Shown here in pieces: positions 15,978 to 49,743 of a stretch of 54,352 nucleotides of DNA (position 1 is the stretch's first letter; each line of letters starts with the position of its first letter). The notes under the pieces were generated by a model. It searched no databases. It saw only the letters and a list, made by a program, of their open reading frames with translations, and was not told the origin of the DNA. The translations under genes were made by a program, and so were the position numbers. This DNA is from Deltaproteobacteria bacterium (GTDB lineage: Bacteria; Desulfobacterota; Dissulfuribacteria; Dissulfuribacterales; QOAL01), in contig JALVJO010000169.1 in the NCBI GenBank assembly GCA_027028245.1, positions 1-54,352 on the forward strand. Direction: 5' to 3'.

Positions 15978-16165
15978 GTTCCTTGTCCAGGTTGAAAGCA
16001 GGGAAAGATCATCAAAAAATCCACAACAAGGGCCTCCTGTTTATAATGTCGTCAGGAAGATTCTAACCGCCTGGTGAGGCCCTGCAAACCGTTCTTGAAA
16101 AAAATGAATTCGTGCATGCTGCCAGGTGTCAGCTAATGAAGACATGTTTTTTCTCCCTTGCTGCC

Positions 16166-16389
16166 GGGAGCATTCCCAGTTTGTTCCTGGACGAAAAAAG
16201 CAAGGATCGGTGCATTTCTTTCAAGGTTCACCAAGCCGCTGTGCAGATTTCAAATTCTTCTCGAATACAGACATTGTCAATCTCAGCGACTTGGCTACGG
16301 TTGAAGTTGGCTTCCTTGTGGTGAAACCTTTCAAGAAACACTCCTTCCTTGCCAATGGTGCAAATGAGGAACAAACGGGGAATGCTCCC
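16166..16389 (+). repeat. Fold-back repeat element, copy 1
   Basis: A 224-bp element bounded by GGGAGCATTCCC and its inverse GGGAATGCTCCC. The inverted match extends across GTTTGTTCCT with one mismatch. It shares a highly similar core with the elements at 42491 and 49476 (for example the shared stretch TGCAGATTTCAAATTCTT). The gap 15978-16549 holds no convincing gene apart from this repeat; apparent open frames in it are conserved only as part of the repeat. Confidence 0.8.
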
Positions 16390-16549
16390 TTGCGGGCAAG
16401 GGAGGAAAGTCCGGGCAGAAATTAATGAGATTACATTAGGGGAGTAGATGCATTTTGAATTATCAATGGACAATCCCGCTTACCAGACGCATATTATATT
16501 CTGAAAGGTCTTAAAAACTGATAATCCGGGAAGGCGGGAGAATTTAAAC

Positions 16550-37345: not shown

Positions 37346-38020
37346 ATGGCAGTTATTATTGCACTTGTAGCCATAGGGCTGAGCATTTTCGGTATCATGG
37401 CGTATCGTCAGATCACATCTCTTCGTAAAGAGATACAGGAGATCAGGGATGCCATAGCGTCTGGCGAACTTAGGGGCCCAAGGGGTGAACCAGGGCCTCC
37501 TGGCAGACAGGGACCTCCTGGTCCCAGGGGTGAAAAGGGTGAACCAGGTCCCCAGGGACCTCCTGGTGAACCAGGACCCAAGGGTGAAAAGGGAGATAAG
37601 GGTGAGCCTGGTCCGGAAGGGCCGCAGGGACCTCCGGGCGAACCCGGACCTCCAGGTCCTCAGGGCGAGCCTGGACCGCAGGGACCTCCGGGTCCGGAAG
37701 GACCACAAGGACCACAGGGCGAACCCGGACCTCAAGGACCTCCGGGACCACAGGGACCTCCAGGCCCAGAAGGACCTCCGGGACCCAAGGGTGAAAAGGG
37801 AGATAAGGGTGAGCCTGGTCCGGAAGGGCCGCAGGGACCTCCGGGCGAACCCGGACCTCCAGGTCCTCAGGGCGAGCCTGGACCGCAGGGACCTCCGGGT
37901 CCGGAAGGACCTCCGGGGCCCAAGGGCGAAAAGGGAGAACGTGGTCCGAGAGGACCCAGGGGCGCAAAGGGCGCTGCCGGCGGTAAGACTACGAAGACCA
38001 AGAAGAAGAAGGCGGAATAG
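37346..38020 (+). CDS. Membrane-anchored collagen-like protein
   Basis: A 224-residue protein with an N-terminal hydrophobic anchor (residues 1-20), a short heptad stretch ([14 protein letters not shown]) that could nucleate a trimer, then 56 uninterrupted Gly-X-Y triplets and a Lys-rich tail ([11 protein letters not shown]). Pro-rich triplets ([12 protein letters not shown]) predict a stable triple helix without hydroxyproline, helped by charged GEK/GDK/GER triplets. Bacterial collagen-like proteins form surface filaments or bind host or matrix. Codons repeat strongly, with a 131-bp exact duplication. ATG 37346 follows AAGGAGGG. The 193 bp upstream show no other gene. Confidence 0.93.
37574..37911 (+). 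repeat. 131-bp exact direct duplication inside the collagen-like gene
   Basis: Bases 37574-37704 and 37781-37911 are identical, offset by 207 bp (69 codons, 23 triplets), so the reading frame and Gly-X-Y phase are kept. This points to recent in-frame expansion by recombination or slippage, and the gene length may vary between strains. Confidence 0.9.
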
Positions 38021-42490: not shown

Positions 42491-42709
42491 CAATCCCGGT
42501 TTGTCCCAGCCATTTATGCCACTGGCAAGGAAGGTGTGTTTTAAAGGTTTCACCACAAGGAAGCCAACTTCAGCCGCACTCAAGCCGCTGAGATTGGCGA
42601 TGTCTGTACTCGCGAAGAATTTGAAATCTGCAAAGCGGCCTGGTGAACATTGAAAGAAATGCGCCGATCCCTGCCCTTCCGTGTCCAGAGGGAAACAGGG
42701 AATGCTCCC
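42491..42709 (-). repeat. Fold-back repeat element, copy 2 (inverted, left end degraded)
   Basis: Same family as the elements at 16166 and 49476 but in the opposite orientation. The right end keeps GGGAATGCTCCC at 42698-42709; the left end is eroded to AATCCCGGTTTGT. The core differs by substitutions and a codon-sized deletion, so it is the oldest-looking copy. It fills most of the gap 42406-42780, in which I see no gene. Confidence 0.78.
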
Positions 42710-49407: not shown

Positions 49408-49475
49408 CCCTGCTGCCCGTACCCGGGGCAATGCGTCAGGTATTGTTCTGCATGCCCTTGTTCTATGTTTGCGGG

Positions 49476-49709
49476 GGGAGCATTCCCCGTTTGTCCCCGG
49501 ACGAATAATGGCGAGGAATGGCAAGGAAGGTGCATTTCTTTCAAGGTTCACCAAGCCGCTATGCAGATTTCAAATTCTTTTGGAATGCAGACATGGCCAA
49601 TCTCATCGGCTTGACTGCGGCTGAAGTGGGCTTCCTTGTGGTGAAACCTTTCAAGAAACACCCTTTCCTTGCCAGTAGCACAAATGGGAGACAAACTGGG
49701 AATGCTCCC
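49476..49709 (+). repeat. Fold-back repeat element, copy 3
   Basis: A 234-bp element with GGGAGCATTCCC at one end and GGGAATGCTCCC at the other. A second, inner inverted repeat GGCAAGGAAGG...CCTTTCCTTGCC extends the arms to about 75 bp, so the transcript or single strand could fold into a long hairpin. Nearly the same orientation and sequence as copy 1. The 336-bp gap 49408-49743 holds nothing else. Confidence 0.8.
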
Positions 49710-49743
49710 GTTTGCCGGGTTATTTCGACTGGTAAGGTGAAAA

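Follow-up and report, generated by a model that had tools for sequence, protein, structure and literature searches.

The window analyzed here (the whole stretch of 54,352 nucleotides, part of contig 169 of the genome designated G000) carries three related elements, which a first-pass annotation had placed at 16166 (plus strand), 42491 (minus strand), and 49476 (plus strand) and whose relationship is confirmed by their alignment end to end. The element is ~225 bp long, with 22-bp terminal inverted repeats (GGGAGCATTCCCNGTTTGTCCC), and its layout runs from the outside inward through the terminal inverted repeat, variable outer arms, the conserved arms of an inner hairpin, and a variable loop. 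Copy 1 (positions 16166 to 16389, plus strand; full length, 224 bp) has its left terminal inverted repeat, GGGAGCATTCCCAGTTTGTTCC, at 16166 to 16187 (plus strand) and the right one at 16368 to 16389 (minus strand), and it is flanked by the 8-bp target-site duplications TTGCTGCC (16158 to 16165) and TTGCGGGC (16390 to 16397), the left agreeing with the right at 6 of 8 positions. Copy 3 (49476 to 49709, plus strand; full length, 234 bp) has a 9-bp insertion near its left end and lies between the 9-bp duplications GTTTGCGGG (49467 to 49475) and GTTTGCCGG (49710 to 49718), which match at 8 of 9 positions. No target-site duplication was recognized around copy 2 (42491 to 42709, minus strand). The terminal inverted repeats that the same annotation had ascribed to all three elements hold in full for copies 1 and 3, where the exact 12-mer end GGGAGCATTCCC is present on both sides; copy 2 retains it only at 42698 to 42709, the opposite end having decayed to GGGATTGTC with the loss of most of one terminal repeat. 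Searches of the window with this 12-mer alone, allowing two mismatches, gave hits at chance level; the reality of a three-copy family is therefore established by the whole-element evidence and not by the 12-mer alone.

A covariance model of the conserved core (R1), which includes the inner hairpin, matches all three copies: at 16209 to 16344 (minus strand, 153.7 bits) in copy 1, at 42531 to 42665 (plus strand, 129.8 bits) in copy 2, and at 49529 to 49664 (minus strand, 155.4 bits) in copy 3. The inner inverted repeat that had been described is also present, with its 5' arm, TTTCTTTCAAGGTTCACCA, at 16215 to 16233 and its 3' arm, TGGTGAAACCTTTCAAGAAA, at 16319 to 16338 of copy 1 (both given on the plus strand); this arm pair is near-invariant across copies and is flanked by AGCCGCTGTGC and GCGGCTGAAGTTGGCTTCC. 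Single-strand folding gives the element z-scores of −5.4 (plus strand) and −7.9 (minus strand). Just to the right of copy 1, positions 16400 to 16416 (GGGAGGAAAGTCCGGGC) show a 17-base identity to the 5' conserved region of RNase P RNA; the comparison gene is the intact copy on contig 102 of G000, and the remainder of the gene is absent beside copy 1. Elsewhere in the window (37517 to 37930), direct repeats of one family are spaced at multiples of 9 bases and are probably a repetitive coding region.

Copy number, genomic setting, and target-site duplications

Using a copy from the window as the query against G000 (2.86 Mb, 96% complete, 205 contigs), we obtained 102 first-look candidates, 40 of which were scored. 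R1 recovered 83 strong core matches (E below 1e-18), and collapsing by position gave ~84 copies plus a few fragments, a heavy load for 2.9 Mb; the profile count that had been suggested as a check thus places the family throughout the genome. The ends tell the same story, far in excess of what chance would give, with the exact 12-mer GGGAGCATTCCC occurring 69 times and the extended 22-bp end 132 times within three mismatches, against no occurrence of the reversed control pattern in either case. No reading frame is open in all copies. A common small protein was ruled out, since the frames are closed in some of them, and, as had been proposed, the element at ~225 bp is too short to encode a transposase.

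With gene calls taken as simple longest open frames rather than curated annotation, 69 of 70 copies are intergenic, extending to the whole genome the location in gene-free gaps that had been noted for the window. In tandem gene settings, the two orientations relative to genes are about equally represented (20 versus 17, no bias), in keeping with the variable orientation expected of mobile elements. On the same gene calls, the copies lie a median of 24 bp from the 3' end of the preceding gene and 126 bp from the 5' end of the following one (P = 0.009). Insertion just upstream of sigma-70 promoters, which has been described for some of the ISKra4 insertion sequences, was considered and rejected, as there is no TTGACA peak beyond either end. 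Candidates for other interiors between the same ends inside G000 turned out to be fragments of the family itself or chance matches. One copy (L049; contig 95, 34750 to 35243) is interrupted by ~255 bp of other DNA with both ends kept, and a split copy on contig 116 (25350 to 25731) resembles it. Repeats are also present at several contig ends, which suggests that they contribute to the breaks in such assemblies.

When the ends are fixed by the terminal repeats, the 8-bp flanks show 73% identity compared to 29% in shuffled pairs, and the 9-bp flanks 45% compared to 26%, with other lengths near background. Counting a duplication where the identity exceeded the 99% shuffle level, with 8 or 9 bp allowed, we found direct repeats around 44 of 71 near-complete copies (31 of exactly 8 bp and 13 of exactly 9 bp) and no recognizable duplication around the other 27. 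Some of the duplications are perfect and others decayed, which bears out the earlier suggestion that the copies differ in age.

The congeners of G000 differ markedly in their content of the family. G003 (55% complete) carries at least 55 copies of a version that is longer and diverged but has identical ends, and its loci are shared with the record "Thermodesulfatator sp. isolate MAG 87." In G002, a single core copy is accompanied by one decayed remnant, and no copies were found in G001 (99% complete). The one complete core copy of G002 adjoins folE2, and at this locus, the one tested, the orthologous gap is empty in both G000 and G001. We accordingly rejected this copy as a candidate for a fixed, single-copy host element, and the conservation at the same loci in relatives that would have suggested a fixed function was not what we observed. 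Outside the genus, the core had no match among 60 relatives, nor subsequently among ~395 genomes of the phylum in a search with stricter filters that may miss weak matches. None was found in phages, plasmids, or viral contigs either; two viral matches to an 18-mer both lacked the core.

Terminal repeats and ISKra4-type transposases

When 84,980 species genomes (a set that may leave out genomes very near the window) were scanned for exact matches, the terminal repeat was recovered in 21 stretches, mostly from "Thermodesulfatator sp. isolate MAG 87," with others from SeepSRB2, Desulfobulbaceae, Magnetococcales (two), and Gallionella. In one of the Magnetococcales stretches (L079), two inverted ends, matching those of the window's elements exactly or nearly so over 20 bp, lie 2.3 kb apart around broken reading frames, of which two match the NCBIfam ISKra4 model (E values of 1.5e-15 and 6.4e-12, both short of the curated cutoff, as are the ISKra4 matches in the other genomes considered here) and another matches the DruA family. 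Two weaker cases accompany it: in SeepSRB2 (L099), a related end directly follows the gene for an ISKra4 relative, and in G010 (L100), from the same taxonomic family as G000, the ends GGGTGCATTCCCATTTTGTCGC and GGGTGCAAACCCATTTTGTCGC, which are related to those of the window's elements, enclose an open ISKra4 transposase together with a DruA protein. The intact G010 element shows no clear target-site duplication. The search for full-length elements with the same ends and a transposase, which had been put forward as a check, led outside the genus to the broken L079 element, and no ISKra4 transposase was matched in G000 or in its congeners G001 to G003.

As a separate observation, L079 and L100 indicate that ISKra4-type elements bounded by these ends carry, in addition, a gene for a DruA-family protein (PF14236). 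This family is named after the Druantia antiphage system, and no paper mentioning DruA and ISKra4 together was found in the literature searched. The same terminal repeats further bound short, transposase-free elements with interiors unrelated to the core (L080, 5834 to 6097; L094, 6049 to 6315; L085, 4035 to 4110), SeepSRB2 among others having short elements of its own whose interior is unlike the core. Such a combination of the same ends with unrelated interiors in other taxa indicates that this terminal sequence has given rise to miniature elements more than once.

Prokaryotic Mutator-like elements, ISKra4 among them, have inverted repeats of 18 to 39 bp in which the terminal C is conserved, and their insertion yields 8- or 9-bp direct repeats (PMC3942029, 2014); the repeats studied here agree on both counts. 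Because their ends and their 8- or 9-bp duplications fit both this description and the ISKra4 elements found elsewhere, we infer that an ISKra4-type enzyme, since lost, did the moving in trans. An ISKra4 (p-MULT 4) transposase of the Mutator superfamily, supplied in trans, most likely recognized the 22-bp terminal inverted repeats and would have mobilized the element through a DDE reaction, leaving duplications of 8 or 9 bp at the target site. Multiplication within the genus would have followed, above all in the species of G000 and one congener, and the source element may later have been lost or may never have been part of the G000 genome. Copies persist mainly in gene gaps near gene 3' ends. 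Given that no autonomous partner is found in G000, the assignment is to be read as "derived from or moved by," and not as "is an ISKra4 element."

Since 8-bp duplications are also made by other insertion sequence families, and given that no ISKra4 gene was found in G000 or its congeners, we considered whether the elements were moved by another DDE family that makes such duplications (e.g., ISL3, IS1595, or IS256), the ISKra4-like ends being convergent. We regard this as quite improbable in view of the exact or near-exact 20-bp termini that bracket the ISKra4 transposase in Magnetococcales, the related ends that follow the SeepSRB2 gene and bracket the one in G010, and the mix of 8- and 9-bp duplications, which fits the Mutator group. 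We conclude with considerable confidence that the repeats are a family of nonautonomous DNA transposons (MITEs) with ISKra4-type termini, most likely moved by an ISKra4-type transposase in trans; the ~84 dispersed copies, the duplications around 44 of the 71, the lack of a common frame, the transposase-bracketing termini elsewhere, and the empty orthologous site all speak for it.

Conservation of the inner hairpin

The first-pass annotation had left open a structural RNA family as the alternative to MITEs, i.e., a family of RNA genes or cis-regulatory RNAs spread by duplication rather than transposition, and the strong predicted fold on both strands and a few compensatory changes are what such a family could show. 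Against it stand the precise 8- or 9-bp direct repeats, the occurrence of the terminal repeats on an element that bears a transposase, the random orientation, and the lack of strand asymmetry, which together make it exceedingly improbable. The element matches no curated Rfam family. An alignment of 30 sequences at first favored G-U pairs on the minus strand, as a one-strand structural RNA would; with all G000 copies the excess disappears, core stem changes on the minus strand giving 72 G-U and 103 A-C and the inner stem alone about equal numbers, and this candidate was rejected. The covariation check proposed earlier yielded few compensatory pairs, and G-U was not in excess on the strand tested. 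Thus, of the two readings offered, the MITE is the right one, and a structural RNA, with neither an Rfam match nor a G-U/A-C strand asymmetry, finds no support.

Within the MITE, the inner arms stand out by their conservation. Among copies with a duplication, the inner arms diverge from the consensus by 1.6%, compared to 6.5% for the terminal repeats, 9% for the loop, and 11% for the outer arms, and the inner arms also lie below the change since insertion estimated from the duplications themselves (at least 3.0% per copy; P = 0.015). In copies without a recognizable duplication the ends are more decayed (9.7%) and the 5' arms are not (1.4%). Parsimony on the terminal branches of the copy tree gives 0.9 to 1.4 changes per site in the arms versus 3.4 to 4.3 in the loop and ends, a contrast that is suggestive only, the tree being poorly resolved. 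Three species retain the arms despite a diverging loop; one stem pair changes from G-C to A-T between G000 and G003 and one from T-A to C-G in nine copies within G003, both switches fitting a hairpin maintained in DNA or RNA.

Copies with perfect duplications, which are presumably young, show the same contrast between the arms and the rest; therefore, a good part of the arm conservation arose before insertion. This part could reflect selection on source copies, e.g., for mobility, and the remainder could reflect selection after insertion. The latter invites the reading that the inner hairpin of the MITE has a selected function at many loci once inserted, for example in stabilizing or processing RNA or in binding a protein. 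The low divergence of the arms relative to the loop, outer arms, and duplication-based rate, their persistence where the ends have decayed, and their retention in three species, together with the clear covarying pair seen between species and the one seen within G003, would all accord with such a role. We nevertheless hold it to be unlikely: the copies show no orientation bias relative to genes, the stem changes have no G-U over A-C bias on either strand, no Rfam family corresponds to the hairpin, and the contrast shared by the perfect-duplication copies may be due to selection that acted solely on source copies. Were this unlikely reading correct, an ISKra4-type MITE would have seeded regulatory or protein-binding hairpins genome-wide in the genus. 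The conserved arms beside a fast-changing loop and ends offer a testable case of whether MITE interiors are retained because they serve mobility or because they serve the host.

Comparison with known elements

Bacterial MITEs are known for many transposase families; in the open full texts searched, no MITE was attributed to the ISKra4 (Mutator-like) group. The repeats resemble the ISKra4 family of insertion sequences (p-MULT 4) in their ~22-bp terminal inverted repeats that start with GGG and end with CCC, their 8- or 9-bp direct repeats, and the presence in other genomes of ISKra4 transposases flanked by exact or related termini. They differ from these in having neither a transposase nor a common open frame, in their size (225 bp versus about 2.3 to 2.5 kb), and in the lack of a detected autonomous partner in the genome or genus. 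With the elements of SeepSRB2 and Desulfobulbaceae (L080, L094, and L085) they share the same 22-bp terminal repeats and a short, transposase-free form, whereas the interiors of the latter (about 265 and 76 bp) are unrelated to the core in a profile search. The ERIC, REP/BIME, and BOX repeats are likewise dispersed, intergenic, palindromic, and of high copy number, but they are not defined by 8- to 9-bp duplications or 22-bp ISKra4-like ends, both of which characterize the present family, itself devoid of an Rfam match. Since no ISKra4 transposase is detectable in G000 or its congeners, the elements look orphaned, and they are a new family of ordinary mobile DNA, a high-copy-number MITE with ISKra4-type ends. 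They resemble the Correia elements and the Thiomargarita hupL MITE (PMC4853749), which are also short, gene-less, hairpin forming, high in copy number, mostly intergenic, and often without their parent element in the genome; their termini and duplication lengths are different, the hupL MITE having a 10-bp direct repeat and a 19-bp inverted repeat and the dsrA MITE having TATAG ends (PMC4853749).
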